The notes under the pieces are model-generated. The model did no database searches and was not told the origin of the DNA. It worked only from the letters and a program-made list of their open reading frames with translations. Below are positions 46,460 to 64,000 of a DNA stretch of 64,000 nt, piece by piece. This DNA is from Kushneria sinocarnis (GTDB lineage Bacteria; Pseudomonadota; Gammaproteobacteria; Pseudomonadales; Halomonadaceae), in assembly GCF_003633775.1 (NCBI RefSeq), contig NZ_RBIN01000004.1:310001-374000 (forward strand), in the 5' to 3' direction. The translations under genes were made by a program, and so were the position numbers. Position 1 is the stretch's first letter. Each line of letters opens with the position of its first letter.

Positions 46460-47974
46460 CTAGCCGGCCTGCGGCCGCATCGCGGGGAACAGCAGCACAT
46501 CGCGGATCGAGGGCGCATTGGTGAGCAGCATGACCAGCCGGTCGATGCCGATCCCCTCCCCGGCGGTCGGCGGCAGGCCGTACTCCAGGGCGCGGATATA
46601 GTCCGCATCGTAGTACATTGCCTCGAGATCGCCGGCCTCCTTCTCCGCCACCTGGGCGGCAAAGCGTTCGGCCTGGTCCTCGGGGTCGTTGAGCTCGGAG
46701 AAGCCGTTGGCGATCTCGCGCCCGTTGATGAAGAACTCGAAGCGATCGGTCACGAACGGATCGGTATCGTTGCGCCGTGCCAGCGGACTGACCTCGGCCG
46801 GATATTCGGTGATGAAGGTCGGCGCATCGAGCCGATGCTCGGCAACCGTCTCGAAGATCTCGGTCTGCAGCTTGCCGAGCCCCCAGCCGGTGCCGACCTC
46901 GAGCCCCAGCCGCTCGGCGACCCCGCAGGCGGCCTCGAAGCTGTCGAGTTCGGCAGCCTCGATGCCCTCGCCATGGCGCAGGATGGCTTCCCGCATGGTC
47001 AGGCGCTCGAACGGCCGGGAGAGATCATAGTCCGCGCCCTGATAGTGCACCGTGGTGGTCCCCAGCGCCTGCTCGGCGACAAAGCGCACCAGCGCCTCGG
47101 TCAGATCGATCAGGTCATGGTAATCCGCATAGGCCCAGTAGAACTCGAGCATGGTGAACTCGGGGTTGTGACGCGTCGACAGCCCCTCGTTGCGAAAGTT
47201 GCGGTTGATCTCGAAGACCCGCTCGAAACCGCCCACCACCAGCCGCTTGAGATAGAGCTCGGGGGCAATGCGCAGGTACATGTCCATATCCAGCGCATTG
47301 TGATGCGTCACGAACGGGCGCGCCGTGGCCCCGCCGGGAATCGGCTGCAGCATCGGCGTCTCGACTTCCATGAAGTCATGCTCGGTGAAGTAGCGGCGAA
47401 TGGCGCTGATCACCGCAGCCCGGATGCGGAAGGTTTCGCGCACCTCCGGATTCATGATCAGATCGACATAGCGCTGGCGATAGCGCGCCTCCTGATCGGT
47501 CAGGCCGTGAAACTTGTCGGGCAGCGGCCGCAGGCTCTTGGTCAGCAGCCGCGCCTCTTTCATCATGACGTAGAGATCGCCCTTGCCGGACTTGTGCACC
47601 GGCCCCCGGCCGAAGACGATATCGCCGATGTCCCAGCTGCCGATCTCCTCGAGCAGCTCCGCCGGCAGCCCCTTCTTGTCGACATAGAGCTGGATCTGGC
47701 CGGAACCATCCTGGATGACGATGAAGGGGCCACGCTTGCGCATGATGCGCCCGGCCACCGCCGCATGGCGATCGAGCTGCTCGAGGGTCGGCTTGTCATG
47801 CTCGCCCAGCTCGGCCTGCAGCGTGGCAGCCAGGCTGTCGCGGCGCTGGTCGTTGGGGAAGGCACTCGCGCCGCCGGCGGCCGCCCGCTCCCGATGCGCC
47901 GCCAGCTTGGTCCGGCGCTCACTGATCAGCTGATTGTCGTCGCGTGAAGTGTCCTGCTGATCCTGATTCGCCAT
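46460..47974 (-). CDS. lysS: Lysine-tRNA ligase, class II
   Basis: Charges tRNA-Lys (504 aa). An N-terminal OB-fold anticodon-binding domain ([20 protein letters not shown]) precedes the class II core. Motif 1 is [20 protein letters not shown], motif 2 is [20 protein letters not shown] and motif 3 is [20 protein letters not shown]. It lies downstream of prfB on the same strand, as in E. coli, but with a roughly 200-base gap. Confidence 0.97.
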
Positions 47975-48172: not shown

Positions 48173-49271
48173 TCAGAGTCCCTGCTTGAGGCTCGCCTCG
48201 ATGAACGCATCCAGCTCGCCGTCCAGCACCTTCTCGCAGCTGCTGCTCTGGACGCCGGTGCGCAGATCCTTGATGCGCTGGTCATCGAGCACGTAGGAGC
48301 GGATCTGGCTGCCCCAGCCGATGTCCGACTTGGCATCCTCGGCCTTCTGTTTCTCGGCATTGCGCTTTTGCATCTCGATTTCCCAGAGCTTGGCACGCAG
48401 CTGCTTCATGGCGAAATCGCGGTTGGCATGCTGGCTGCGCTGGCTCTGGCACGACACCACCACGCCGGTCGGCTCGTGGGTGATGCGCACTGCCGAATCG
48501 GTGGTGTTGACGTGCTGACCACCGGCCCCGCTGGAGCGATAGGTGTCGACGCGCAGGTCCGAGGAGTTGATCTCGACCTCGAAGCTGTCGTCGATCTCCG
48601 GCGAGAGGAACACTGACGCAAAGGAGGTGTGCCGCCGGCCACCGGAGTCGAACGGGCTCTTGCGTACCAGCCGGTGCACGCCGGTCTCGGTGCGCAGCCA
48701 GCCGAAGGCGTACTCGCCCTGCACATGCACGGTGGCGGACTTGATGCCGGCCACATCACCGGCACTGACTTCCAGCAGGTCGGCGGTAAAGCCGTGATGC
48801 TCGATCCAGCGCAGATACATGCGCAGCAGCATGTTGGCCCAGTCCTGGGCCTCGGTGCCGCCGGAGCCGGCCTGGATATCGAGATAGGCGTTGTTGGCGT
48901 CCATTTCGCCGGAGAACATCCGCCGGAACTCGAGTCTGGAAAGCTCGCTCTCGTAGCGCGCGAGATCGCTGCGGATCATGTCGACGGTGTCGTCATCCTG
49001 CTCGCTGACCGCCAGCTCCAGCAGATCGGCGTTGTCGGAGACCCCGCTGGAGAGACGATCGAGGGTCGTGACGAGCTCCTCGAGCTGGGCGCGCTCGCGA
49101 CCGAGCTTCTGGGCGTGATCCGGGTCGTTCCAGATCTCGGGGTTTTCCAGTTCGCGGGTTACCTCTTCCAGCCGATCCTTCTTCTCGGCATAGTCAAAGA
49201 TACCCCCTCAGGACTTCTGTCCGTTCGGACAGGTCCTTGATCTGCTGATTGATCGGTGTAATTTCCTGCAT
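48173..49271 (-). CDS. prfB: Peptide chain release factor 2 (needs programmed +1 frameshift)
   Basis: RF2 recognises UAA and UGA and releases the peptide. Translation starts at the ATG at 49269-49271. Twenty-five codons ([12 protein letters not shown]..., ending LRGYL) lead to an in-frame UGA at 49194-49196. A +1 shift continues as [20 protein letters not shown] to 48173, giving 365 aa, exactly the E. coli length. The SPF anticodon-like tripeptide is in [12 protein letters not shown] and the GGQ catalytic motif in [15 protein letters not shown]. Annotated as a simple frame, the gene would lose about 95 residues or look broken. Confidence 0.97.
49193..49208 (-). promoter_or_regulatory. prfB programmed +1 frameshift site
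   Basis: On the minus strand the bases are AGG GGG TAT CTT TGA C. A Shine-Dalgarno-like AGGGGG lies just before CTT TGA, identical to the E. coli autoregulatory site. When RF2 is scarce the ribosome slips one base at CUU and reads GAC instead of stopping. Confidence 0.97.
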
Positions 49272-49411: not shown

Positions 49412-51007
49412 ATGACACGACTGTATCCGATGATGGCAACCGCAGCCCTGCTGGGCGCCCTGAGTCTCGCCCCCGTGGCCATCGAGGCCGCCGCGGCAGC
49501 CACTCTCAAGGTCGGCATCAGCAGCGATCCGGCCTCGCTCGATCCGGGTCGGATCACCGGCGGTGTCTGGGAAGAAGATGTGCTGCGTGACATCTACGAG
49601 GGACTGATCAGTATCGATGCCGGTGGCCGGATCATTCCCGGCGTCGCCGAAAGCTGGCAGCTTGCCGATGACGGCACCACCTGGACCTTTGAACTGCGCG
49701 ACGATGCGCAGTGGTCGGATGGCGAGCCGGTCACCGCCGAGGATTTCGTCCGGGCGCTGCGCTATCACGCCAATCCGCAGACGGCCTCGAACTACGCCCA
49801 TCGGCTCTATCCCATCGTCAATGCAGAAGCGATCACCCGCGGCGACAAACCGGTTGACTCGCTGGGGGTGGAGAGCCGCAACGATGGTCATACGCTGGTC
49901 ATTCACCTGAACGAACCCACGGCCTATTTCCTGAAGACGCTGGTGCTGCCCTTCGGCTACCCGTTGCCGAAACACGTGATGGCGCAGTACGGCAAGGCCT
50001 GGAGCGATATCGATCATATCGTCACCAATGGCCCCTTCAAGCCGGTGAAGTGGGTCTCCAACACCGAGCTGGAGACGGTGAAAAACCCGCGGTTTCATGC
50101 CGCCGAGCAGGTCAGTCTCGATGGCGTCGACTTCTATCCGCTGGAAGACAAGAGCGCTGCCATTACCCGCTTTCGCGCTGGCGAAGTGGATGTGGTGCGC
50201 GACTTTCCGGCGGCCCGCTATCAGTGGCTGAAGGACAATCTGCCCGAGGCCGTACACGTCGCGCCCTCGCTGGGCAGCTACTACTACGTGTTCAATACCC
50301 GAAAAGGCACCCCGACCGCCGATCGCCGGGTACGCCGGGCACTGAGCCTGGCCATCAATCGCGAGGTGATTGCCGACAAGCTGCTCGATGGTGCGGTCGA
50401 GCCCTCCCGGGCGCTGGTCCCCGGCGGCGTCAGTCACTATACGCCGCAGCCCCAGCCGGGGCTGGATGAGCCGATGCCGGCGCGCATGCAGAAGGCACGG
50501 CAACTGCTGCAGCAGGCCGGCTACGGACCGGAGCACCCGCTTGAACTGACCCTGCGCTACAACGCCGGCACCGAGCATCAGCGCATCGCCGTGGCCGTGG
50601 CGGCCATGTGGAAGCCACTGGGGGTCGAGATTACCCAGCGCTCCTCCGAGGCCAACGTGCACTACGCCGACCTGATGCAGGGCGATTTCCAGGTTGCCCG
50701 CGCCGCCTGGATCTCCAGCTACGACGATGCCCAGAACTTCCTGCAGCTGCTGTCGGCGGAGACCAACAACTACGGCGCCTGGCACAGTGACGAGTACAGC
50801 CGGCTGATGGCGCGCTCCGATCGCGAACAGGATCGCGAACAGCGCCGGGCACTGCTCGAACAGGCCGAGCGCGTGGGGCTGGCGGACTATCCGCTGGCGC
50901 CGATCTACATCTACGCCTCGCGCAATCTGGTCAACCCGGCAATCGAGGGCTGGCAGGACAACGCGCTGGACATGCACCCCTCGCGCTGGCTGTCACTGCC
51001 GCAATGA
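49412..51007 (+). CDS. Oligopeptide ABC transporter, periplasmic binding protein 1
   Basis: A 531-residue OppA/DppA-type (SBP family 5) receptor. A Sec signal peptide (about 1-29, ending in an Ala run, no lipobox Cys) precedes KVGISSDPASLDPGRITGGV. The family signature reads PGVAESWQLADDGTTWTFEL, followed by RDDAQWSDGEPVTAEDFV. The C-terminal half has AAMWKPLGVEITQRSSEANV and ends NPAIEGWQDNALDMHPSRW. It is the first of four tandem paralogues before a single permease. AAGGAAG precedes the ATG at 49412. Ligand specificity cannot be read. Confidence 0.92.
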   Translation: MTRLYPMMATAALLGALSLAPVAIEAAAAATLKVGISSDPASLDPGRITGGVWEEDVLRDIYEGLISIDAGGRIIPGVAESWQLADDGTTWTFELRDDAQWSDGEPVTAEDFVRALRYHANPQTASNYAHRLYPIVNAEAITRGDKPVDSLGVESRNDGHTLVIHLNEPTAYFLKTLVLPFGYPLPKHVMAQYGKAWSDIDHIVTNGPFKPVKWVSNTELETVKNPRFHAAEQVSLDGVDFYPLEDKSAAITRFRAGEVDVVRDFPAARYQWLKDNLPEAVHVAPSLGSYYYVFNTRKGTPTADRRVRRALSLAINREVIADKLLDGAVEPSRALVPGGVSHYTPQPQPGLDEPMPARMQKARQLLQQAGYGPEHPLELTLRYNAGTEHQRIAVAVAAMWKPLGVEITQRSSEANVHYADLMQGDFQVARAAWISSYDDAQNFLQLLSAETNNYGAWHSDEYSRLMARSDREQDREQRRALLEQAERVGLADYPLAPIYIYASRNLVNPAIEGWQDNALDMHPSRWLSLPQ

Positions 51008-51148
51008 GCACCGCAGACCCGCGGCCCCGGGCGATTATCGTGGACAGCGTCTTCAAGCAGGGATAAGGTCGGTGGCAACGGTATGATCTGCCGACCCGAC
51101 AATGCGCCGCCACGAGCGGCAATAACAACACAGAGATCAGGATTCACC

Positions 51149-52750
51149 ATGCATCATCCCCGCCTTCTCTCCGGCGCCGTCGCGCTGACCCTGGCCGTAC
51201 TGCTGACCCCGTGGCAGGCCTGCGCCGCCGAGCCTTCCCGCACCCTGAACATCGGCATCACCGGTGAACCCGCCTCGCTCGATCCGGCCAGGGCCTCGGG
51301 GGGCGTATGGGAGTCCGATGTCTTCATGGACCTCTATGCCGGGCTGATCGTCGAAGACGCCGCGGGCGAGCACATCCCGGGGATCGCGAAGAGCTGGGAA
51401 GTCTCGGATGACGGCCTGACCTGGACCTTCCATCTGCGCGATGACGCCCAATGGTCGGACGGCCACCCGGTCACCGCCGAGGATTTCGTGTTCGGCTGGA
51501 AACATCAGCTCGACCCGAAGAGTGCTTCCAAGTACGCCTACATGCTCTATCCGGTGAAGAATGCCAGGGCGGTCAATACCGGCGAAAAGCCGCTGGATGC
51601 GCTGGGCGTCGAATCCCTGGATGACGGCCACACCTTCCGGGTCACGCTGGCCCGGCCGACCCCCTACTTCATCAAGATCCTGACGCATTACACATCGCTG
51701 CCGATCCCCGAGCACGTGGTCGAAAAGTACGGCGACCAATGGACACGGATGGAGCACATCGTCACCGATGGCGCCTTCAAGCCGACCAGCTGGGTCTCCC
51801 ACGATCACATCTCGGCGGTGAAGAACCCCCGGTTTCATGATGCGAAGAATGTCGCGCTGGACAGGATCAACTACTACCCCACCGAAGACGCCAATGCCGG
51901 TATCCAGCGTTTTCGTGCCGGCGAGCTCGACATCCTGCGCAACTACACCTCCGATCGCTACGAGTGGCTGAAGCAGCATCTGCCCGATGCCACGCACATG
52001 GATACCTATCTGGGCTCGTACTACTACGTGCTCAACAGCCGCGAGGGCCGCCCCACCGCCGACCCGCGGGTGCGCGAGGCACTCAATCTGGCGATCCGGC
52101 GCAACGTGCTCTCCGAACAGATCATGCAGGACACCTTTCAGCCCGCCTATGCACTGGTGCCACCGGGCGTTTCCCACTACACCGCCCAGCCCATGGTCCT
52201 GAAGGACATGACCATGGAAGAGCGCATGACCCGGGCCAGACAGCTGATGCAGGACGCCGGTTACGGCCCGGATCATCCGCTCAGGCTGACCCTGCGCTAC
52301 AACACCAGCGACGAGCACAAGAAGATTGCCATCGCCGTGGCGGCGATGTGGCGGCCACTCGGGGTGCAGGTCGAGATGACCAACGCCGAGGTCACGGTGC
52401 ACTACCAGGCCCTGCAGGAAGGAGACTTCGACGTCGCCCGGGCCGGCTGGATCGCCGACTACAACGATGCCGAGAACTTCCTGACCCTGCTGCATACCGG
52501 GGTAGGCAACAACTACGGTGCCTGGCACAACGAGCAGTTCGATCAGCTGCTGGACGAGGCCAACGTCACCCTGGACAGCGACAAGCGTGAACAGCTCATG
52601 GAACAGGCCGAAGGCGTGGCCATGAACGATCATGCGCTGATTCCGCTGCTCTATTACGTGTCACGCAACCTGGTCAATCCGCAGCTCGAGGGCTGGCAGG
52701 ACAACATCGAGGACAACCACCCCTCCCGCTGGGTGAAGTTCTCGCCGTAA
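51149..52750 (+). CDS. Oligopeptide ABC transporter, periplasmic binding protein 2
   Basis: A 533-residue SBP family 5 receptor, paralogous to its three neighbours. The signal peptide has a Leu/Val-rich core (LLSGAVALTLAVLLTPW) and a cleavage region ACAAEPS, with no canonical lipobox. The mature protein opens LNIGITGEPASLDPARASGG. The signature is SWEVSDDGLTWTFHLRDDAQ and the last domain ends NPQLEGWQDNIEDNHPSRWV. The ATG at 51149 follows AGGA. The 141-base gap to the previous gene is long enough for a separate promoter, with a -10-like TATGAT at 51082 but no good -35. Confidence 0.92.
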   Translation: MHHPRLLSGAVALTLAVLLTPWQACAAEPSRTLNIGITGEPASLDPARASGGVWESDVFMDLYAGLIVEDAAGEHIPGIAKSWEVSDDGLTWTFHLRDDAQWSDGHPVTAEDFVFGWKHQLDPKSASKYAYMLYPVKNARAVNTGEKPLDALGVESLDDGHTFRVTLARPTPYFIKILTHYTSLPIPEHVVEKYGDQWTRMEHIVTDGAFKPTSWVSHDHISAVKNPRFHDAKNVALDRINYYPTEDANAGIQRFRAGELDILRNYTSDRYEWLKQHLPDATHMDTYLGSYYYVLNSREGRPTADPRVREALNLAIRRNVLSEQIMQDTFQPAYALVPPGVSHYTAQPMVLKDMTMEERMTRARQLMQDAGYGPDHPLRLTLRYNTSDEHKKIAIAVAAMWRPLGVQVEMTNAEVTVHYQALQEGDFDVARAGWIADYNDAENFLTLLHTGVGNNYGAWHNEQFDQLLDEANVTLDSDKREQLMEQAEGVAMNDHALIPLLYYVSRNLVNPQLEGWQDNIEDNHPSRWVKFSP

Positions 52751-52759
52751 CCTTCCCCG

Positions 52760-52779
52760 TGACCCACCCCGGTGGGTCA
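52760..52779. terminator. Hairpin between binding-protein genes 2 and 3
   Basis: TGACCCACC/GGTGGGTCA, a 9-bp stem with a 2-base loop, just after the stop of the second receptor gene. There is no T-run. It may stabilise or attenuate the message so that the receptor genes are expressed at different levels. Confidence 0.4.
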
Positions 52780-52875
52780 TTCACACGGACTCTCCCGCTA
52801 CCGGCGACGCCTGTACCGGACGGATGAGAGCATGGCGCCAGTGGCTTCACGGCAGACCAGGGGAAGAGGAACATC

Positions 52876-54480
52876 ATGGTGAAACATCGACTGGCGGCAA
52901 TCGCCACCACCGCCGCATGGCTGACTGTCACCAGTCTGACCGGGCAGGCGGCGACGCTGGACATCGGCACCCAGGGCGAGCCGGCCTCGCTCGACCCGGC
53001 CCGGGTCAACGGTACGGTCTTCGAGAACACCGTGCTCGGCGATCTCTACGAGGGCCTGATCACGCTGGGCCCGGGCGGTGATTACCTGCCGGGGGTGGCG
53101 ACCCGCTGGGAGACTTCCCCGGACGGGCGTCGCTGGACCTTTCAGCTGCGCGACGATGCCCGCTGGTCCGATGGCGCGCCGGTCACGGCGCGGGATTTCG
53201 TGGTGGCCTTTCGCCGCGTGCTCGACCCGGCGACCGCCTCGGTCTATGCCAGCCTGCTCTACCCGCTGCACAACGCCGAAGCCATCAGCCGCGGCGAGGC
53301 GCCGGTCGACTCGCTGGGGGTCACCGCACCCGATCCGCATACGCTGGTCATCGAGCTCGACGACAACACCCCCTGGCTGCCCTCGCTGCTCGCCCACATC
53401 GTCACCTCGCCGGTGCCGGCCCATCTGATTGACCGATACGGCAGCCACTGGAACCGGATCGATCACATCGCCACCAACGGAGCCTTCACTCCCGAAAGCT
53501 GGCGCTCGCACGATCATATCGCCGCGGTGCGCAACCCGCACTTTCACGATGCCGACAGTGTCGCCCTCGACGGGGTCAACTACTACCCCGCCGAGGATCT
53601 GCAGGCCGGGCTGTCGCGCTTTCGTGCCGGCGAGCTCGATATCATGCGCGACTTCGATCCGCAGCGTTACCAGTGGCTGCAGGAGCATCTGGGCGATGCC
53701 GTGCATCTGCGCAACCAGCTGGCGACCTACTATTACGCGCTGAATTCACGCCAGGGGCACCCCACCGCGGATCCCCGGGTGCGCGAAGCCCTCAATCTCG
53801 CCCTGCGCCGCCGGGTGATCACCGGGCAGATTCTCGAGGGCGCGGTCGAGCCCACCACCTCACTGGTCCCCGAAGGCATCAGTCACTACCGGCCCGAAGC
53901 GATGCCCGGGCTCGATCAGCCGATGGCGCAGCGCCTGGCCCGGGCACGCGAGCTGCTCGACGAGGCCGGCTACGGCCCCGACCATCCCCTCGAGCTGCGC
54001 CTGCGCTACAACTCGCGCGATGATCATCGCCGCATTGCGGTGGCCGCCGCAGCCATGTGGCGCCCGCTCGGCATCAATGTCGAGCTGATCAACGCCGAAT
54101 CCAGCGTGCACTACTCGAGCCTTGCCCAGGGGGATTTCGATGTCGGCCGGGCCAGCTGGGTGGCCGACTTCGACGATGCCAGCAACTTTCTCGGCATCCT
54201 GCAAAGCGGCAATCCGAAGAATTACGGGGGGTATCACAACCCACGCTTCGACCGGCTGATGCAGCAGGCCGCCGAAGAAACCTCGACCGAGCGACGCCAG
54301 ACCCTGCTGGCGCAGGCCGAACAGGTGGCCATGAGCGACTACGCCATGGCCCCGATCTACTCCGACGCGTCGCGCAACCTGGTCAACCCGCAGCTCGAAG
54401 GCTGGCAGGACAACGCCATCAACCGTCATCTGGCACGCTGGTTGCGTTTCCGGGAAGACGCGGACGCCGGACAGCCCTAA
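52876..54480 (+). CDS. Oligopeptide ABC transporter, periplasmic binding protein 3
   Basis: A 534-residue SBP family 5 receptor. The signal peptide is short (KHRLAAIATTAAWLTVTSLT, cleavage near GQAA). The mature part starts LDIGTQGEPASLDPARVNGT. The signature reads RWETSPDGRRWTFQLRDDAR. The end, NPQLEGWQDNAINRHLARWL, departs from the HPSRW ending of the other three. A strong ribosome site (GGGGAAGAGGAA) precedes the ATG. It lies 125 bases after receptor 2 and 49 before receptor 4. Confidence 0.92.
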   Translation: MVKHRLAAIATTAAWLTVTSLTGQAATLDIGTQGEPASLDPARVNGTVFENTVLGDLYEGLITLGPGGDYLPGVATRWETSPDGRRWTFQLRDDARWSDGAPVTARDFVVAFRRVLDPATASVYASLLYPLHNAEAISRGEAPVDSLGVTAPDPHTLVIELDDNTPWLPSLLAHIVTSPVPAHLIDRYGSHWNRIDHIATNGAFTPESWRSHDHIAAVRNPHFHDADSVALDGVNYYPAEDLQAGLSRFRAGELDIMRDFDPQRYQWLQEHLGDAVHLRNQLATYYYALNSRQGHPTADPRVREALNLALRRRVITGQILEGAVEPTTSLVPEGISHYRPEAMPGLDQPMAQRLARARELLDEAGYGPDHPLELRLRYNSRDDHRRIAVAAAAMWRPLGINVELINAESSVHYSSLAQGDFDVGRASWVADFDDASNFLGILQSGNPKNYGGYHNPRFDRLMQQAAEETSTERRQTLLAQAEQVAMSDYAMAPIYSDASRNLVNPQLEGWQDNAINRHLARWLRFREDADAGQP

Positions 54481-54529
54481 CAACAATCATGGCCCGGCCT
54501 CAGGCCAGGAGCCATCACGGGACAATGAC

Positions 54530-56140
54530 ATGAGACTGACAACGCTGATGGGGGTGGGCGCCCTGTGCGCCCTGCTCGCCACGGGGCCGCTCCCGGCCGG
54601 TGCTGGCGAACCCGATGAAGCCGCCGTGCTGCATCGGGCCAACGGGGCGGAGCCCTCGTCTCTGGACCCGCAGCTCGGCACCGGGAGCTGGGAATCCAAC
54701 ATCACCGGTGATCTGTTCGAGGGACTGCTGGCACGCGATGCCGCCGGAGAGCTCATCCCGGGCGTGGCGCAGCGCTGGGACGTCTCGGCTGACGGGCTGA
54801 CCTATACCTTCCATCTGCGGGAGAATGCCCGCTGGTCGGATGGCACGCCGGTCACGGCCGGAGATTTCGTCTACGCCTGGCGGCGCCTGCTCTCCCCCGA
54901 ACTGGGCGCCGCCTACGCCTACCTGCTGTTCCCGGTCGCCAACGCACGCGCCATCAATCACGGCGAGCAGGCGGCGGAGACGCTCGGCGTGCAGGCCGTC
55001 GACGAGCACACGCTGACGGTCACTCTGACGCGACCGACCGGCTACTTTCCCGAGCTGCTGGCGCATCCCTCGACCTTCCCGGTACCCGAGCAGGCCATTC
55101 GTGCCCATGGCAGCCGCTGGACCCAGCCGGGCAACATGGTCTCCAACGGCGCCTTCGAGCTCACCGAGTGGGTCTCGCACGGCCACATCACGGCCCGGCG
55201 CAATGCCGATTTCCATGATGCCGCCGGCGTCTCCCTGCAGGCAGTGACGTACTATCCGATCGACGACGCCCGGGCCGCGCTCAACCGCTTTCGCACCGGC
55301 GAGATGGACATGATCGACTCCGTGCCCACCGACCGGCTCGACTGGGCAAGACGGAGCATGCCCCGGGCGCTGCATGTCAGCCCGATGCTCGGCACCTTCT
55401 ACTTCGCCTTCAATCAACGCGAGGGCAGCGTGCTCACCGACCGCCGCATCCGCGAAGCGCTCAATCTGGCCACCCGGCGGCGCATCATCACCGAAAGGAT
55501 CACCCGGCTCGATCAACCCCCCGCCTGGTCGCTCGTCCCGGACGCCATCGATCATTACGACGGCCCCCGCTTCGACTTTGCCGACAGCCCCCTGGAAGAG
55601 CGGATGGCCCGCGCCCGGCAGCTGATGCAGGACGCCGGCTACAGCCCGGCGCATCCCCTGAAGCTGACCATCGACTACATCACCAACCCGGAAACCCGGC
55701 GCATTCCGGTGGCACTGGCCGCCATGTGGCAACCGCTCGGGGTGGACGTCACGCTCATCAACAGCGATGCCGCGGTCTACTACGCCAAACTGCGTCAGGG
55801 AGACTTCCAGATCGGCATGGCGCCCTGGGTTGCCGACTACAACGATGCCAGCAACTTCCTCGATCTGTTCCGAAGCGGCGTGCCCAACAACCATTCCGGC
55901 TATCACCATCCGGCCTATGACCGGCTGATGGCCGAGGCCGGCGAAACGCTCGATCCCGGCAAGCGGGCCCGGCTCATGGCCGATGCCGAGCAGCGGCTGC
56001 TCGATGACGCGGCCCTGCTGCCACTGTATTTTTATGTCAGGGCCGTCATGGTATCGCCCCGCCTGACCGGCTGGCAGGAGAACCCGCTGGATATCCATCC
56101 GAGCCGCTGGATCCGCTTCCGATCCGGCACCGGCCAGTGA
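54530..56140 (+). CDS. Oligopeptide ABC transporter, periplasmic binding protein 4
   Basis: A 536-residue receptor, the most divergent of the four and closest to classical E. coli OppA in its motifs: LHRANGAEPSSLDPQLGTGS, RWDVSADGLTYTFHLRENAR, WSDGTPVTAGDFVYAWRRLL. The signal peptide core is LMGVGALCALLATGPLPAGA. The C-terminus is RLTGWQENPLDIHPSRWIRF. It directly precedes oppB (51 bases) and may be the primary partner of the permease, with the upstream three as added specificities (inference). Confidence 0.93.
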   Translation: MRLTTLMGVGALCALLATGPLPAGAGEPDEAAVLHRANGAEPSSLDPQLGTGSWESNITGDLFEGLLARDAAGELIPGVAQRWDVSADGLTYTFHLRENARWSDGTPVTAGDFVYAWRRLLSPELGAAYAYLLFPVANARAINHGEQAAETLGVQAVDEHTLTVTLTRPTGYFPELLAHPSTFPVPEQAIRAHGSRWTQPGNMVSNGAFELTEWVSHGHITARRNADFHDAAGVSLQAVTYYPIDDARAALNRFRTGEMDMIDSVPTDRLDWARRSMPRALHVSPMLGTFYFAFNQREGSVLTDRRIREALNLATRRRIITERITRLDQPPAWSLVPDAIDHYDGPRFDFADSPLEERMARARQLMQDAGYSPAHPLKLTIDYITNPETRRIPVALAAMWQPLGVDVTLINSDAAVYYAKLRQGDFQIGMAPWVADYNDASNFLDLFRSGVPNNHSGYHHPAYDRLMAEAGETLDPGKRARLMADAEQRLLDDAALLPLYFYVRAVMVSPRLTGWQENPLDIHPSRWIRFRSGTGQ

Positions 56141-56191
56141 GCCCGCCTCCATGACCCCGACTGCTGCACCATCGCAAAGAGAGCACCACGC

Positions 56192-57118
56192 ATGCTGACC
56201 TATACCGCCAAACGGCTGGCCATGGCGATCCCGACCCTGCTGATCGTCATCACCGTATCGTTCTTCCTGATGCGCGTGGCCCCCGGCGGGCCTTTCGACG
56301 GCGAACGCCAGCTGCCGCCCGAGATCGAAAACAACCTGCGTGCGGCCTACCACCTCGATGAACCGCTGCCGATGCAGTATCTGCGCTACATGGGCAATCT
56401 GCTGCAGGGCGATTTCGGTCCGTCGTTCAAGTACAAGGATTTCTCGGTCACCCAGCTGATCCTGCAGGGGTTTCCGGTCAGCCTCGAACTCGGCGGGCTG
56501 GCCATCGGGCTGGCGCTGATCATCGGCCTGCCGCTGGGGGTGATCGCCGCACTCCGGCGCAACTCCACCGTCGACTACATGGTGATGGGCATCGCGCTGG
56601 GCGGCATTGCCGTTCCCAACTTCGTGATCGCGCCGATTCTGGCACTGGTTTTCGGCGTACTGCTCGCCTGGCTGCCGGCAGGCGGCTGGAATGGCGGCGC
56701 ACTGCCCAACCTGGTGCTGCCGGTGATCGCGCTGGCGATCCAGCAGATTGCCTATATCGCGCGCATGATGCGGGCCTCGATGATCGAGACCCTCGGCAGC
56801 CACTTCATTCGTACCGCCCGTGCCAAGGGGCTCTCCGAGCGCCAGGTGATCTGGCGTCACGCCCTGCGCCCGTCGATGCTGCCGGTCATCTCCTATCTCG
56901 GCCCGGCGATCGCCGGCATCATCACCGGCTCGGTGGTGATCGAACAGATCTTCGGGCTGCCCGGCATCGGCCGCTACTTCGTGCAGGGCGCGCTCAATCG
57001 CGACTACACCCTGGTGATGGGCACGGTCGTGTTCTATGGCGTGCTGATCGTGCTGATGAATCTGGTGGTCGACCTGCTCTACTCCGCGCTCGACCCGCAA
57101 ATCCGCTATGACGACTGA
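56192..57118 (+). CDS. oppB: Oligopeptide ABC transporter permease OppB
   Basis: Inner-membrane permease (308 aa; E. coli OppB 306) with six spans. The N-terminus LTYTAKRLAMAIPTLLIVIT is typical. The binding-protein-dependent transport motif (EAA loop, contacting the ATPase) reads TARAKGLSERQVIWRHALRP. IEQIFGLPGIGRYFVQGALN is the conserved late motif. It forms a heterodimer with OppC, 18 bases downstream. Confidence 0.95.
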   Translation: MLTYTAKRLAMAIPTLLIVITVSFFLMRVAPGGPFDGERQLPPEIENNLRAAYHLDEPLPMQYLRYMGNLLQGDFGPSFKYKDFSVTQLILQGFPVSLELGGLAIGLALIIGLPLGVIAALRRNSTVDYMVMGIALGGIAVPNFVIAPILALVFGVLLAWLPAGGWNGGALPNLVLPVIALAIQQIAYIARMMRASMIETLGSHFIRTARAKGLSERQVIWRHALRPSMLPVISYLGPAIAGIITGSVVIEQIFGLPGIGRYFVQGALNRDYTLVMGTVVFYGVLIVLMNLVVDLLYSALDPQIRYDD

Positions 57119-57136
57119 CCTTCGGACCCTCTGCTC

Positions 57137-58078
57137 ATGACCAGTCACACTTCTACCCATGACGGTTTCGAAGACCGCCACGACCGGCCGGCCGGCAATC
57201 CCAACCCGCCCCCGGAACCCGATCCGGGGCCCGGCGAGAGCCTGGGTCGCGAAGCCTGGCGCCGGCTGAGGCAGAACCACGCGGCCATGTTCAGCCTCGG
57301 GCTGCTGGTCGTGATCACCATCGCCTGCGTGGCCGGCCCCTGGCTCTCCCCGTGGGGGCTGGCTGACGTCGACTGGAATGCCTTCGGCGTGCCACCGACG
57401 CTGGAAGGCATGCACCTGCTCGGCACCGATGCCAACGGCCGCGATCTGCTCACCCGTACGCTCTATGGCGGCCGCGTATCGCTGTCGGTGGCACTGGTCG
57501 CGACCGTGGTCAGCCTGGTGATCGGCGTGCTCTATGGCGCCATCTCAGGGTATGTCGGCGGGCGCACCGACAATCTGATGATGCGGTTTGTCGACATCAT
57601 GTACTCGCTGCCATTCATGTTCCTGGTGATCCTGCTGATGGTGGTATTCGGTCGCAATATCTTCCTGATCTATGCCGCCATCGGGGCCGTGGAGTGGCTC
57701 GACATGGCGCGCATCGTGCGCGGCCAGACGCTGGCGCTCAAGCGGCGCGAGTTCATCGAGGCCGCCCACGCGCTGGGCGTGAAGGACAGCCGCATCATCA
57801 CCCGCCACCTGATTCCCAACACCCTCGGCCCGGTGATCATCTACGTCACGCTGACCGTGCCCAAGGTGATCCTGCTGGAGAGTTTCCTCTCCTTCCTCGG
57901 TCTCGGCGTGCAGGAACCGCTGACCAGCTGGGGCGTGCTGATCAGCGAAGGCACCGATCAGATGCAGAGTGCGCCCTGGATGCTGCTGGTGCCGGCGGTA
58001 TGCCTCGCCCTCACCCTCTTCTGTCTCAACTTCCTCGGCGATGGGCTGCGTGACGCCCTCGATCCGCGGACGCGCTAG
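57137..58078 (+). CDS. oppC: Oligopeptide ABC transporter permease OppC
   Basis: Second permease subunit (313 aa). A hydrophilic, Pro-rich N-terminal tail of about 45 residues precedes the first span. LLGTDANGRDLLTRTLYGGR is the OppC/DppC hallmark. The EAA loop is EAAHALGVKDSRIITRHLIP and FLSFLGLGVQEPLTSWG follows. The stop lies 10 bases before the fused ATPase gene, so oppB-oppC-oppDF are surely one message. Confidence 0.95.
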   Translation: MTSHTSTHDGFEDRHDRPAGNPNPPPEPDPGPGESLGREAWRRLRQNHAAMFSLGLLVVITIACVAGPWLSPWGLADVDWNAFGVPPTLEGMHLLGTDANGRDLLTRTLYGGRVSLSVALVATVVSLVIGVLYGAISGYVGGRTDNLMMRFVDIMYSLPFMFLVILLMVVFGRNIFLIYAAIGAVEWLDMARIVRGQTLALKRREFIEAAHALGVKDSRIITRHLIPNTLGPVIIYVTLTVPKVILLESFLSFLGLGVQEPLTSWGVLISEGTDQMQSAPWMLLVPAVCLALTLFCLNFLGDGLRDALDPRTR

Positions 58079-58088
58079 GAGCACGACC

Positions 58089-59693
58089 ATGTCGACACCG
58101 CTACTTGAAATCGACAACCTGCAGGTCGACTTCCGGCTGCCCACCGGCACCGTCAGCGCCGTTCGGGGCGTCAGCTTCTCGATCCACGAGGGCGAGACCA
58201 TGGCGCTGGTGGGTGAATCCGGCTCCGGCAAGTCGGTGACCTCGACCGCGCTGATGCGGCTGCTGCCGGAAATGACCCATATCAGCGGCAGCGCCCGGCT
58301 GGGCGAGCAGGAGCTGCTGAAGATCTCCCCGCGCCAGATGCGCCGGGTGCGCGGCGACGAGATGTCGATGATCTTCCAGGAGCCGATGACCTCGCTCAAC
58401 CCCCTGCACCGCATCGGCCGGCAGATTGCCGAGGTGCTCGAACGCCATCGCGGCATGACCGGGCAGAAGGCGCAGCAGCGGGTGCTGGAGCTGCTGCGCC
58501 AGGTGGGCATTCCCGAGCCCGAGCGACGCGTGCGCAGCTATCCCCATGAACTCTCCGGCGGCCAGCGCCAGCGCGTGATGATCGCCATCGCGCTGGCGTG
58601 CGAGCCGAAGCTCTTGATCGCCGACGAGCCCACCACGGCGCTCGATGTCACCGTCCAGGCGCAGATTCTGGCGCTGCTGAAGGATCTGCAGCAGCGCTAC
58701 GGCATGGCGATCCTGTTCATCACCCATGACCTGACCCTGGTGCGCCACTTCGCCGAGCGCGTGTGCGTGATGCGCCATGGCGAAATCGTCGAGTCGGGCG
58801 ACACCGCCACCGTCTTTGAACGGCCGCAGCACGACTACACCCGCATGCTGCTCGATGCCGAGCCCAGCGGCACCAAGGCCGCCGTCGACACGCAGGCGCC
58901 GATGCTGCTTGAAGCCAGCGATATCCGGGTCCGCTTTCCGATCAGAAAGCGTCTGTTCGGCAGGAGCGAGTATTTCGAAGCGGTACGCGGTATCACGCTG
59001 AACATTCGGCGCGGCCAGACGGTCGGCATCGTCGGCGAATCCGGTTCCGGCAAGTCCACCCTGGGCCGGGCGCTGCTGCGGCTGCTCGAAAGCCAGGGCT
59101 CGATCACCTTCGACAACACCGATATCACCCACCTCGACAAGTCCGCCATGCGACCGCTGCGCTCGCGCATGCAGGTCGTCTTCCAGGACCCGTTCGGCTC
59201 GCTCTCGCCACGCCAGACGGTCGGCGAGATCATCAGCGAGGGGCTGCGGGTGCACTATCCGGAGCTCGGTCGCCGCGAGCGCGAAGCCCGCATCATCGAA
59301 GCGCTGCAGGAAGTCTCGCTCGATCCGGCCATGCGCCGGCGCTACCCGCACGAGTTCTCCGGTGGCCAGCGCCAGCGGATTGCCATCGCCCGGGCGCTGG
59401 TGCTCAAGCCCCGCTTTCTGCTGCTCGACGAGCCCACCTCCGCACTTGATCGCTCGGTGCAGATGACGGTCATCAGGCTGCTGCGCGAAATTCAGCGCCG
59501 CCATGACCTGACCTATCTGTTCATCAGCCACGACCTGGCGGTGGTGCGCGCGCTCTCCGATACCGTGCTGGTGATGAAGGAGGGCCAGGTCGTCGAGCAC
59601 GGTACTTCCGAAACCATTTTCACCCGGCCGCGCGAGACGTACACGAAGACACTGCTGAAAGCCGCGTTCATGAGCAGCGAGCACGCTGCCTGA
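58089..59693 (+). CDS. Fused double ATPase of the oligopeptide ABC transporter (OppD-OppF)
   Basis: Two ABC ATPase domains in one 534-residue chain, in place of separate OppD and OppF. Domain 1: Walker [14 protein letters not shown], signature [17 protein letters not shown], Walker [13 protein letters not shown]. Domain 2: Walker [15 protein letters not shown], signature [17 protein letters not shown], Walker [12 protein letters not shown]. Each has its own Q-loop ([12 protein letters not shown] and [12 protein letters not shown]) and H-loop. The fused layout resembles YejF of the microcin C/peptide uptake system, although the permeases here are of Opp length. The ATG at 58089 is chosen; the longer frame overlaps oppC. 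Confidence 0.94.
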
Positions 59694-59739
59694 CCAACAC
59701 CGGATACCAACCGCACAACAACAAGAGGTCTACCTTGCG

Positions 59740-61605
59740 ATGCATTACAGAACAGCTCGTCTCCTGCCGACCACCACCCTGCTGCTGGCGCTGCTGCCGG
59801 GAGTGACCAGCCCGGTCATGGCCGCGCAGGCGAGTCGCGGTACTTCGAACGACGGCGCTTCTGCCGGAACATGGCAGCTTGAGGATCTCTACGCCTCGCC
59901 CGCCGCCTGGCAGCAGTCCTACGAACAGGTTTCGCAGGCCATCGACGGGCTGGATCGCTTCCGGGGGCACCTGACCGACAGTCCGCAGGCCCTGGCCGAA
60001 GCGCTGGACGCCGTGCGGCTGAACGCCTATGCCAGCCTCCGGGCGGACGAGGATCTGCGCAACAGTACCGCCCAGGAGCGCAACAACCGGGCCACGCGCC
60101 TGATGGCGCACTACGGCGAAGTGACCGGCTATATTCGTCCCGAACTGACCGGCATGGACCAGTCGACACTGGCCGAGTGGGCGGCCCGGCCGGTGCTGAA
60201 GGTCCACCGCCGGTTTCTGGAAAACGTGATGCGCGAGGCCCCGCATACCCTGGCGCGCCCCACGGAGTCGGCACTGGCGGCGCTTGCACCGGTCACGACC
60301 ACGGGCAACACCTATTCGCTGCTGACCAATTCCGACATCGCCTGGCCGAGCCTTGCCATCGACGGCAAGTCGCGCACCCTGGATCAGGCCGGCTATTCCC
60401 GCTGGCGGGAGTCGGAAGATCGCGATGTGCGCCGCCGGGTGTTCGAAACCTTCTGGCCGGTCTGGCAGCAGTACGAAACCACCTTCGGCGCCCTGCTGGG
60501 CAATCAGGTGCTCGAGCATGTCATCGAGGCACGCCTGCGCCACTACGACAGCGCCCTGGCGGCCGCCGTCAGCAGTAACGACATCCCGGCGGCGGTCTAT
60601 CACCAGCTGATCCGCTCCGCCAATCAACACCTGCCGACCCTGCATCGCTACCTGAAGCTGCGTCAGCGCATGCTCGGCGTTGAACAGCTGCACTACTACG
60701 ACATCTATCCGCCACTGGTCACGAGTGAACGCCGGTTTACCATCGACGATGCCCGCCGCCTGACCCGGGCGGCAACCCGCCCGCTGGGGGCGCACTACTC
60801 GAAACTGCTCGAACGGGCGACCGACTCGCCCTGGACCAGCGTCTACCCGCAACGCGGCAAGCGCTCCGGCGCCTACATGAATGGTTCGGCCTACGATGTC
60901 CATCCCTATGTACTGATGAACTTCAATGGCGCCTACGGGGATGTCTCCACCTACGCCCACGAATGGGGCCATGGCATTCACTCCATGCTGGCCGATGAGT
61001 CGCAGCCCTACGCAACCTCGGATTACCCCATCTTCACCGCGGAAGTGGCCTCCACCACCAATGAAGAGCTGCTGATCGATGACATGATCCGTCAGGCCGA
61101 CAATGACCGGGAGAAACTCTTCTATATCGGCCAGGCGCTGGAATCACTGCGCGGCACCTTCTTCCGTCAGACCCAGTTTGCCGAATTCGAGCTGGCCATC
61201 CATGAAGCCGCCGAACAGGGTACCCCGCTCTCCGGCAAGCGCATGACGCAGATGTATGGCGACATCCTGAAGAAATACTACGGTGTCGAGCAGGGCGTTA
61301 CCGCGATCAACCCGGACTTCTTCATCGAGTGGGCCTACATTCCGCATTTCTATTACAACTTTTACGTCTACCAGTACGCTACCTCGATCACGGCAGCCCA
61401 CCACTTTGCCAGTGCCCTGAAACGGGATCCCGAAAAGGTACGCGCTACCTATCTGAACGTATTGTCGAGCGGCGGCAGTGACAGCGGCTACCGGTTGCTG
61501 AAACAGGCAGGTGTCGATCTGGCCACTCCTCAGCCCTATGACGCGCTGATGGACTACATGAACGAGCTGATGGATCAGGCCGAAACCCTGCTCGAGCGTT
61601 CCTGA
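59740..61605 (+). CDS. Exported M3-family oligoendopeptidase (PepF-like)
   Basis: A 621-residue zinc metallopeptidase. It has a Sec signal peptide (LLPTTTLLLALLPGVTSPVM then AAQA, cleavage about residue 29), an N-terminal helical domain and the M3 catalytic core. The HEXXH site is HEWGH at 407-411 (in STYAHEWGHGIHSM), with the third ligand Glu435 in FTAEVASTTNEELL. FFIEWAYIPHFYYNFYVYQY contributes the His/Tyr near the active site. PepF enzymes cut short peptides (about 7-17 residues) and are usually cytoplasmic, so this one would trim peptides in the periplasm. It follows the Opp ATPase by 46 bases. Confidence 0.92.
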   Translation: MHYRTARLLPTTTLLLALLPGVTSPVMAAQASRGTSNDGASAGTWQLEDLYASPAAWQQSYEQVSQAIDGLDRFRGHLTDSPQALAEALDAVRLNAYASLRADEDLRNSTAQERNNRATRLMAHYGEVTGYIRPELTGMDQSTLAEWAARPVLKVHRRFLENVMREAPHTLARPTESALAALAPVTTTGNTYSLLTNSDIAWPSLAIDGKSRTLDQAGYSRWRESEDRDVRRRVFETFWPVWQQYETTFGALLGNQVLEHVIEARLRHYDSALAAAVSSNDIPAAVYHQLIRSANQHLPTLHRYLKLRQRMLGVEQLHYYDIYPPLVTSERRFTIDDARRLTRAATRPLGAHYSKLLERATDSPWTSVYPQRGKRSGAYMNGSAYDVHPYVLMNFNGAYGDVSTYAHEWGHGIHSMLADESQPYATSDYPIFTAEVASTTNEELLIDDMIRQADNDREKLFYIGQALESLRGTFFRQTQFAEFELAIHEAAEQGTPLSGKRMTQMYGDILKKYYGVEQGVTAINPDFFIEWAYIPHFYYNFYVYQYATSITAAHHFASALKRDPEKVRATYLNVLSSGGSDSGYRLLKQAGVDLATPQPYDALMDYMNELMDQAETLLERS

Positions 61606-61630: not shown

Positions 61631-61658
61631 GAGCCGCCGGCAATCTGGCGGCTCTTTT
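61631..61658 (+). terminator. Intrinsic terminator after the oligoendopeptidase gene
   Basis: GAGCCGCC/GGCGGCTC 8-bp stem with an 8-base loop and TTTT, 25 bases past the stop. It ends the peptide-uptake operon. A weaker 5-bp GGCGC/GCGCC stem followed by T7 (61678-61717) may be a back-up. Confidence 0.85.
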
Positions 61659-62065: not shown

Positions 62066-62081
62066 TGGCACACTAATTGCT
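62066..62081 (+). promoter_or_regulatory. Sigma-54 (-24/-12) promoter of tonB-exbB-exbD
   Basis: TGGCAC, five bases (actaa), TTGCT. The GG and GC pairs are exactly 10 bases apart, as required for RpoN holoenzyme. Only the G after CAC and the leading pyrimidine deviate from consensus. Transcription should start near 62092, about 86 bases before the tonB ATG. Confidence 0.65.
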
Positions 62082-62177: not shown

Positions 62178-62948
62178 ATGAGTGACAGTGTCAGGGGAAC
62201 GGTCGATCAGGGAATCGGCACACAATCGCAACGACGCTCCATTGCCAAGGCGGAAATCATTACGCTGCTGCTGGTATCGGCCGCCGTCCACGGGCTGCTC
62301 TGGTGGGCACTGAACCGTCAGCCGGATGTACTGGCCGAAGCCATGCCGACCCAGGCCTCCCGGGCATCGGAGGTGACGGTGTCGCTGACCAGCGCACCTC
62401 CGCCTACTCCCGAACCACCTCCTCCTCCACCTCAACCACAGGTGGAAGAGGCGCCGGTGGTCGATGAAAACGCGGTCATGCCGGCAGAAGAAGAGGTGGC
62501 AGAGCAACCCGAGCCCGAACCCGAGCCCGAACCACAGCCGGAACCCGAACCCGAACCCGAACCCGAACCCGAGCCTCGCCCGGCACAGCAGTCGAGTCAG
62601 CCGACACGGACCTCGAATCCATCGGCGCAGCGCGCCTCGAGCAGCAACAGCAGCGCCAACCAGGTGACCCCGGCAGTGTCGGGCATGCAGAGCCTGGGCA
62701 ATCCGCCGCCCCGTTATCCTTCGCTGGCCCTGCGTCGCGGTTACGAAGGCAACGTCAGGCTGAAGATCCTGGTGCTGCCCGACGGGACCGCCGGTCAGGT
62801 GGAGGTCATCTCCTCCAGCGGTCATCGCGAACTGGACGAGGCCGCCGTGGAAACCGTGAAAGGCTGGAAGTTCAAGCCGGCCCGACGAGGCGACACCCCC
62901 ATCAGGGGCTGGGCGATCCAGACGATTGCCTTCAATCTGCCGCGCTGA
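62178..62948 (+). CDS. tonB: Energy transducer TonB
   Basis: Couples the inner-membrane proton gradient to outer-membrane receptors (256 aa). A single N-terminal span (about 26-46, IITLLLVSAAVHGLLWWAL, with the conserved SxxxH pattern as SAAVH) is followed by a periplasm-spanning stretch of Pro-Pro and Glu-Pro repeats (about 75-133). After a Ser-rich linker comes the C-terminal TonB domain with PPRYPSLALRRGYEGNVRLK, VLPDGTAGQVEV and AVETVKGWKFKPARRG. It heads a tonB-exbB-exbD operon 47 bases before exbB. Confidence 0.95.
   Translation: MSDSVRGTVDQGIGTQSQRRSIAKAEIITLLLVSAAVHGLLWWALNRQPDVLAEAMPTQASRASEVTVSLTSAPPPTPEPPPPPPQPQVEEAPVVDENAVMPAEEEVAEQPEPEPEPEPQPEPEPEPEPEPEPRPAQQSSQPTRTSNPSAQRASSSNSSANQVTPAVSGMQSLGNPPPRYPSLALRRGYEGNVRLKILVLPDGTAGQVEVISSSGHRELDEAAVETVKGWKFKPARRGDTPIRGWAIQTIAFNLPR
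62511..62575 (+). repeat. Tandem hexanucleotide repeat encoding Glu-Pro in tonB
   Basis: About ten near-identical GA(A/G)CCC units, interrupted once by a Gln-Pro, encode the Glu-Pro spacer of TonB. The longest uninterrupted run of identical GAACCC units is five. Multiples of six keep the frame, so unit number could vary without inactivating the gene. Confidence 0.85.
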
Positions 62949-62995: not shown

Positions 62996-63724
62996 ATGAT
63001 GAACAGCAGTATTACGCCAATGATCGTGCCCGCGGTGCTCTGGACCCTGATCGCCTTTTCGGTGGTGACCTGGGCGGTGCTGCTGATCAAGGGGCTGCAG
63101 TTTGCCCGCAACCGTACCGAGAACAAGCGGTTTCGCAAGGCCTTCTGGGAAGCCCGCAGCCTGGAGGAAGGCGAGTCCGTGGCCGAGCAGCGCCCCGGCA
63201 CCATGGCCTCGATTGCACGCGCCGGGTTTGCGGTCATTACCGGCAGCGACATCTCGCCCGACAACCGGGAACTGGCTCAGCGAATCAACCGTTCCGACCG
63301 TCTGGAACGCAGCCTGCGTCAGCAGATTCAGCGGGAACGACGTTCGCTGGAAGGCGGCCTGGCCATTCTGGCCAGTATCGGCAGCACCTCGCCCTTCATC
63401 GGCCTGTTCGGCACCGTCTGGGGCATCATGGAAGCACTGGTCACCATCGGCGAGACCGGTGAAGCCGGGCTGGACACCGTGGCCGGCCCCATCGGCCACG
63501 CCCTGATTGCCACCGGCGTCGGTATTGCCGTCGCCGTGCCCGCCGTGCTGGTTTACAACTACTTCACCCGTCGCCTCAAGCTCAACGTATCGCTGATGGA
63601 TGATTTTGCGCACGACTTTTACAGCCTGGCGCAACAGAACGAGTTTCATGTTCGCTCTTCGGTCGATACCGGCCATGCAGCACATGGCAACCCCGCTCCC
63701 CGGCATCAGCCGATGGGTGCCTGA
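62996..63724 (+). CDS. exbB: TonB-system motor protein ExbB
   Basis: MotA/TolQ/ExbB-family proton channel subunit (242 aa). The first span (PAVLWTLIAFSVVTWAVLLI) is followed by a cytoplasmic region. LAILASIGSTSPFIGLFGTV then GIMEAL carries the second span and conserved Gly/Thr. LIATGVGIAVAVPAVLVYNY forms the third. AGGAG is 10 bases before the first ATG; a second ATG follows immediately. It sits between tonB and exbD. Confidence 0.95.
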   Translation: MMNSSITPMIVPAVLWTLIAFSVVTWAVLLIKGLQFARNRTENKRFRKAFWEARSLEEGESVAEQRPGTMASIARAGFAVITGSDISPDNRELAQRINRSDRLERSLRQQIQRERRSLEGGLAILASIGSTSPFIGLFGTVWGIMEALVTIGETGEAGLDTVAGPIGHALIATGVGIAVAVPAVLVYNYFTRRLKLNVSLMDDFAHDFYSLAQQNEFHVRSSVDTGHAAHGNPAPRHQPMGA

Positions 63725-63765
63725 ATCCGCCCCCTGCCACCCTTCAGATTCCGGGAGACATGACC

Positions 63766-64000
63766 ATGGCCTTTTCCAATCAGGACGATGATGAAGTACT
63801 CAGCGAAATGAATGTCACACCGCTGGTGGATGTCATGCTGGTGCTGCTGGTGGTCTTCATTGTAACAGCCCCGCTGATGACCAATGCCGTGCACGTCAAT
63901 CTGCCCAGGACCGGCGCAGTAGCGCCGCCCGAATCCAGTGAACCGATGGTAGTGAGCGTGGATGCCGAGGGGCACTATTTCATTGGCAAGCAGGAGTACG
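63766..64000 (+). CDS. exbD: TonB-system protein ExbD (3' end outside window)
   Basis: The first 78 residues of an ExbD/TolR protein, read directly. AFSNQDDDEVLSEMNVTPLV is followed by DVMLVLLVVFIVTAPLM, the single span with the essential membrane Asp (VDVML) that carries protons. VHVNLPRTGAVAPPE then enters the periplasm. The ATG at 63766 has GGGAG 8 bases upstream; an in-frame ATG at 63760 is too close to it. The remainder of the gene is missing. Confidence 0.93.
   Translation, partial: MAFSNQDDDEVLSEMNVTPLVDVMLVLLVVFIVTAPLMTNAVHVNLPRTGAVAPPESSEPMVVSVDAEGHYFIGKQEY

Follow-up and report, generated by a model that had tools for sequence, protein, structure and literature searches.

What a bacterium might do with four oligopeptide receptors encoded in tandem, a single permease and a peptidase that appears to be exported is the question raised by a stretch of Kushneria sinocarnis DNA (64,000 nucleotides (nt) of contig NZ_RBIN01000004.1, positions 310,001 to 374,000, assembly GCF_003633775.1), hereafter the window. 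An earlier note on this DNA had described the genes between 49412 and 61605 as a complete capture-cut-import module for peptides. The run does not end at 61605, as had been supposed, since tonB, exbB and exbD follow and then, beyond the window, genes for a TonB-dependent transporter (TBDT) and an M13 peptidase. We read the whole as a two-unit island for peptide utilisation, perhaps for nitrogen, comprising an opp/PepF unit and a TonB/TBDT/M13 unit; this function, deduced from gene content and context, is one that we consider reasonably probable.

Gene content of the island

The first putative transcription unit would consist of the four receptors, OppB, OppC, a double ATPase and PepF, and the second, probably starting at a sigma54 promoter, of tonB, exbB, exbD and the genes for the TBDT and the M13 peptidase. 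The features are listed below; gene starts in the first unit are probable starts.

49412..51007, + strand: receptor S1, an OppA-like substrate-binding protein, with Ser in the position of Asp419 of OppA
51149..52750, + strand: receptor S2, OppA-like, with Y109, N366, H371, R413, W416 and D419 as in OppA
52876..54480, + strand: receptor S3, OppA-like, the six checked pocket residues identical to those of OppA
54530..56140, + strand: receptor S4a, Asp419 kept, N366 replaced by Ile, H371 by Thr and R413 by Met
56192..57118, + strand: OppB permease (NCBIfam OppB 437.8 bits, cut-off 388)
57137..58078, + strand: OppC permease (best NCBIfam match OppC at 372.1 bits, under the cut-off of 433; Pfam BPD_transp_1 and OppC_N)
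58089..59693, + strand: fused double ATPase of the OppD-OppF type (best NCBIfam match YejF at 697 bits, under the cut-off of 834)
59740..61605, + strand: PepF-type M3 oligoendopeptidase with a signal-like N terminus (TIGR00181 499.1 bits, cut-off 490.55; HEWGH)
61631..61654, + strand: G+C-rich 8-bp hairpin followed by TTTTG, read by eye and folded with its surroundings, a possible terminator of the first unit
62066..62081, + strand: sigma54-type promoter TGGCACACTAATTGCT, an exact consensus match 96 nt before the tonB start
62178..62948, + strand: TonB-type protein (TonB_C 80.1 bits)
62996..63724, + strand: ExbB/TolQ-type protein (TolQ 170.7 and ExbB 141.4 bits, both under cut-off)
63760..64000, + strand: ExbD-type protein, cut by the window end, whole at 135 amino acids in L046 and named by place and size
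L046:8265-11141, beyond the window after exbD: TBDT, a 958-amino-acid frame
L046:11235-13316, beyond the window after the TBDT: M13 peptidase with a signal-like start (both Pfam domains, 386.8 and 232.6 bits; HEMSH and ENIGDL)

All eight genes of the first unit are open, lie on the + strand and follow the order originally noted, and the motifs reported as intact are so: the ATPase carries the Walker A, signature and Walker B motifs twice each, and PepF keeps HExxH. The M13 peptidase of the second unit keeps HExxH as well. Gaps of 141, 125, 49, 51, 18, 10 and 46 nt separate the genes, and 572 nt lie between PepF and the next gene. The ATPase start at 58089 is probable, the frame opening at 57969 inside the OppC gene and the family match beginning at residue 41. 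The receptors match SBP_bac_5 (264–284 bits) and are closer to the OppA model (358–430 bits) than to the DppA model (79–108 bits), although below both curated cut-offs; as all four miss the OppA equivalog cut-off of 947, they are called OppA-like rather than OppA equivalogs. Their mutual identity is 42–55%, and they account for four of the six SBP_bac_5 genes in a genome of 3.51 Mb that has two M3 peptidases. In the second unit the name ExbB rests on the place of the gene between tonB and exbD. TonB_C matches number 3, 3, 3 and 5 in four genomes with the island (one of the five under cut-off) and 2 each in seven without it (one a weaker partial match), and the island appears to bring an extra TonB of its own. 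The window genome has four TBDTs in total.

Several other features were seen around these genes. The periplasm-spanning part of the TonB protein contains a long Glu-Pro repeat run. A frame of 966 amino acids (54515–57415, − strand), antisense to the fourth receptor and OppB, is ascribed to high G+C. The opp genes begin divergently beside prfB (release factor 2; 48173–49240, − strand), which carries an apparent programmed frameshift site, AGGGGG TAT CTT TGA C (− strand), and is adjoined by lysS (46460–47974); prfB or lysS stands beside S1 in many relatives too. At the other end, the M13 gene is followed by a MerR regulator and a heavy-metal P-type ATPase, and in several relatives without the extra genes the opp genes are followed, within a few kb, by a similar P-type ATPase.

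Distribution of the island and of PepF

Co-occurrence was examined across the family, in 275 genomes from 24 genera (among them Salinicola and the window's genus). S1 was found at 1e-200 in 37 genomes, PepF at an E-value of 1e-60 or better in 15, the M13 peptidase at 1e-100 in 12 and the TBDT at 1e-100 in 11. Every genome with PepF also has S1, PepF lying on the S1 contig at a distance of 10.4–21.4 kb each time. Every genome with the TBDT in turn has PepF; the four with PepF but not the TBDT are G002, G016, G167 and G168. Eleven of the M13 matches reach 70% identity or more, and the genomes concerned are exactly the 11 that have the TBDT; G025 supplies the remaining match, at 41%. In 11/11 the genes for TonB and ExbB are situated after PepF and before the TBDT. 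PepF is the variable part of the locus (15/37 S1 genomes), and in the window's genus S1 was present in all 10 genomes seen, PepF in two and the TBDT in one. The capture-cut-import grouping proposed in the earlier note therefore recurs, PepF being linked to S1 in 15/15 family genomes that have it, but is not complete, as it forms half of the larger island.

The signal-like N terminus of PepF was seen in the window protein and in five aligned relatives, all five of which have some eight residues near position 90 that the window PepF lacks; export was judged by eye and with a crude hydropathy scan and is thus predicted only. PepF-type enzymes had been taken to be mostly cytoplasmic, a view at odds with signal-like starts in 67 of 76 loci outside the family, although the scan was crude and the set biased as the nearest to the query (the best 80 of more than 541 confirmed loci, four of them Salinicola). 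Receptor, OppB, OppC and ATPase genes adjoin PepF in 2 of these 76 loci, many contigs being short. One, L072, is a gammaproteobacterial metagenome-assembled genome in which the receptor-OppB-OppC-ATPase-PepF run is accompanied by an M2 peptidase, a POT transporter and a TBDT of 25% identity; the other, L076, is from Porticoccus. Family PepF sequences (14 of the 15 PepF genomes, G168 being left out) were monophyletic against the 76 outside sequences with support of 1.0. In PHROGs, PepF matched a single unnamed family and M13 matched none.

That PepF, TBDT and M13 arrived together as neighbours without a joint function in feeding, serving instead the turnover of envelope proteins or of signal-peptide remnants, is an explanation that would suit the 74/76 outside loci in which PepF relatives have no adjoining opp genes, and the monophyly of family PepF, which means that the linkage may reflect few events. 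We regard it as very unlikely given the all-or-none pattern in Salinicola, where 9 of 17 S1 genomes have PepF, TBDT and M13 and the other 8 have none of the three, and the occurrence of comparable gene groups in other lineages.

The PepF proteins of the window and its sister genome G002 share 71% identity, compared with 98% for OppB. Separate transfer of the two was considered and rejected, as they are sisters in the tree (0.915) within the monophyletic family group (1.0). In genus g8 a gene of the glutamine-synthetase family lies between the ATPase gene and PepF (L056:515-1960 by Pfam; L169:5213-6583, grouped with L056).

Predicted control of the second unit

The motif TGGCAY-N5-TTGCW occurs once in the 64 kb window, at 62066, where 0.09 occurrences are expected and 9 of 100 shuffles had at least one. 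An exact match precedes tonB in 11/11 island genomes (counted separately in G200, where an overlong tonB frame had hidden it), compared with 1 of 2200 letter shuffles of the tonB upstream stretches. The motif was also found before tonB in a related island in G572, a genome of the class-wide sample, and before a distant TBDT in L156 (G308) and in L082, the TBDT match in the latter spanning only 158 of 872 residues. No sigma54 site with up to one mismatch was present in the 450 nt before S1 at any of 30 loci checked. Control of the second unit by sigma54 is a strong inference from these sequences, and control by nitrogen is our proposal. No gene for a sigma54 activator was seen among the few neighbouring genes, the sole place examined. 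A sigma70 and terminator scan was no richer than shuffles. Iron control of the unit was considered as well and rejected, Fur-box matches being no better than shuffles (none rarer than 23/200 in 11/11 tonB upstream stretches).

Receptor pockets suggest different ligand classes

Aligning the receptors of 37 genomes with Salmonella OppA gave the pocket positions. Because overlapping overlong frames were dropped (for example S3 of G012, present by another search), the number of receptors counted in a genome is a minimum. In OppA proteins of Gram-negative bacteria Asp419 docks the peptide N terminus (PMC5736914). At this place Ser was found in 36/36 first receptors (the G199 stretch lacks S1), Asp in 36/36 second receptors and Thr in 25/25 fourth receptors of a type designated S4b. 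The S4a type of the window was found in 8 genomes, all of them among the 11 with TBDT and M13, and in 0/26 others, of which 22 have S4b and four showed no fourth receptor. In S4a, N366, H371 and R413 are replaced; a simulation reported in PMC6305025 had Arg413 and His371 touching the final residue of a tripeptide. S1 (36 leaves, support 0.896), S2 (34, 1.0), S3 (32, 1.0) and S4a (8, 1.0) formed clades. Taken together, the pocket residues suggest different ligand classes. The receptors had been thought to widen peptide specificity; they look specialised rather than simply broader in range. Two types, S1 and S4b, do not have the Asp to which the free N terminus of a peptide docks. In some relatives genes with GGDEF or HD/PilZ domains, of the cyclic-di-GMP type, lie between receptors 1 and 2 (L161:3923-5116, L064:4416-5753, L168:2914-4653).

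Some of these components may serve in murein-peptide recovery. The best solved-structure match of S1 was MppA (344.9 bits), followed by OppA (308.3 bits), and a gene for an NlpC/P60 protein, with YkfC-type SH3 domain matches and no signal-like start (Pfam on 3 of the 18, BLAST for the rest), lies between S2 and S3 in 18/36 relatives (16/17 Salinicola, G018 and G016). Together with the docking Asp missing in S1 and S4b, these features could be taken to mean that receptors and permease mainly scavenge cell-wall peptides, PepF, TBDT and M13 being a later, loosely related addition. As the main function of the locus this is unlikely: MppA itself keeps the docking Asp, as do S2 and S3, in the window's genus no NlpC/P60 gene separates S2 from S3 (0/10 genomes), and M13, M3 and TBDT would be left unexplained.

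The place downstream of the ATPase gene is variable too. In 15 of 25 non-island genomes (G212 left out) a porin-like gene lies there on the same strand, 444–854 nt away; it had no Pfam match and an NCBIfam OmpC match of 24.7 bits, under cut-off. Among island genomes it was found in 0/11 within the stretches examined, the rest of those genomes not having been searched.

Substrate of the TBDT and evidence against a peptide island

The following points weigh against the island as we read it. A peptide substrate for the TBDT is a guess made because of the neighbouring genes, whereas its best family and structure matches are siderophore, heme, colicin I and vitamin B12 receptors. These could indicate that it imports a siderophore, heme, B12 or another small molecule, its position beside opp being incidental and M13 degrading the peptide part of that molecule or something else. 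We judge this to be quite improbable, since the matches are all below curated cut-offs and cover mostly the plug, tonB is preceded by the sigma54 motif instead of Fur boxes beyond shuffles, and TBDT and M13 share one set of 11 genomes, each of which has PepF and opp. PqqU and YddB are the same protein. That a linked protease can mislead is illustrated by YddB/PqqL, once read as a system for protein import (PMC6793856), as the E. coli PqqU is now described as an importer of pyrroloquinoline quinone (PMC12124388).

Fisher values for the co-occurrence ignore kinship, so the p-values overstate it. In the class-wide sample the TBDT was found at 1e-80 in 7 of 369 genomes, and beyond the window genome itself only G572 was close (46%, the rest 32–33%); other TBDT places of that search had the sigma54 motif in only 2/8, within the stretches examined. 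What we take to be the NtrC-type palindrome was exact upstream of tonB in 8/11 genomes, each a Salinicola, against 15 of 2200 shuffles. The window genome and G018 differ from it at one position, and the trimmed G200 stretch does not have it; no exact copy exists in the window, where 2.5 are expected. Three of the 11 island genomes carry S4b, not S4a, and a consensus terminator scan of the window did not list the hairpin after PepF. A structure prediction for the TBDT (Salinicola orthologue, four sequences) had a mean predicted local distance difference test score of 26 and was not used.

In G572 (L155) a TonB-ExbB-TBDT group with the sigma54 motif is accompanied by a POT transporter, a porin O/P gene and an M3 peptidase whose start is signal-like. 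That such TBDTs stand next to peptide transporters and peptidases of different kinds argues, by association only, for a peptide substrate.

Comparison with known systems

The Opp systems of E. coli and Salmonella differ from the island in having one clustered receptor, separate OppD and OppF proteins and no linked peptidase. They likewise use an OppB/OppC-type permease, which is common to OppA and MppA (see also PMC5736914). Multiple receptors are not without precedent, contrary to the statement that Opp systems normally have one. The dppA1-A4/opdP/mdpA/dppBCDF locus of Pseudomonas aeruginosa combines several receptors with one permease, an outer-membrane channel gene and a peptidase (PMC4206461). 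Its receptors are of the DppA type for di- and tripeptides, its channel is a porin and its metallo-dipeptidase is not described as exported, and the account of the locus in PMC4206461 mentions no TonB, TBDT, M13 or PepF. Window relatives without the TBDT are more like this locus, their porin-like gene beside opp paralleling opdP beside dpp (PMC4206461). In Borrelia burgdorferi, oppA1-3 are likewise tandem OppA paralogues with differing pockets in one Opp system; they are lipoproteins, there are two further plasmid receptors, the docking Asp is kept in every receptor discussed, and the description in PMC5736914 names neither a TBDT nor a peptidase.

On the outer-membrane side, Fus and other protease-associated import systems also have a TBDT, a TonB-type protein and an exported protease clustered, sometimes with an ABC transporter (PMC6793856). 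Fus has a FusA-type TBDT, the M16 protease FusC and iron-linked expression, and other proteases occur in some clusters, the account in PMC6793856 naming neither M13 nor M3. The proteases of the island are M13 and M3, with no FusC in the cluster, and none of the 20 solved chains that the TBDT matched was named FusA, although whether FusA is in that set was not checked. RagAB of Porphyromonas gingivalis likewise ties TonB-dependent uptake to protein or peptide food and has a lid lipoprotein (PMC11817032), unlike the island, the TBDT of which scored 22.5 bits against the SusC/RagA signature (cut-off 46.2). Multi-receptor peptide permeases and TBDT-protease clusters are thus both already known, and the suggestion that the locus represents an undescribed system stands for the combination: one conserved, exchangeable, sigma54-marked island with two probably exported endopeptidases. 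This combination is described in no paper found among the open-licence literature searched, papers outside that set not being covered.

Proposed function and implications

Our preferred reading of the two units as a peptide-utilisation island would work as follows. A sigma54 activator would turn on the second unit, perhaps when nitrogen is short, and the island's TonB and ExbBD would power the TBDT for uptake across the outer membrane of peptides too large for porins. Imported peptides would be cut in the periplasm by the M13 and M3 endopeptidases, and the one Opp permease would take the pieces, perhaps including murein or N-blocked peptides, from receptors with differing pockets. More tentatively, and as a possibility that we hold to be less than even, the island may be a nitrogen-triggered peptide counterpart of a polysaccharide utilisation locus, in which a TBDT with its own TonB admits peptides above the porin limit for periplasmic cutting by M13 and M3, S4a, having kept the N-terminal anchor and dropped contacts on the C-terminal side, holds long fragments, receptors without the Asp take N-blocked or murein peptides, and the gate beside opp, porin or TBDT, is swapped as a unit.

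Many TonB-dependent receptors have no known substrate, and a conserved cluster in which one type of TBDT is found together with a peptide permease, a sigma54 promoter and a pair of peptidases offers a concrete peptide hypothesis. If it is correct, outer-membrane gate, cutting and inner-membrane import would form one genetic programme, and the swapped receptors and gates would show the stepwise rebuilding of such a pathway.

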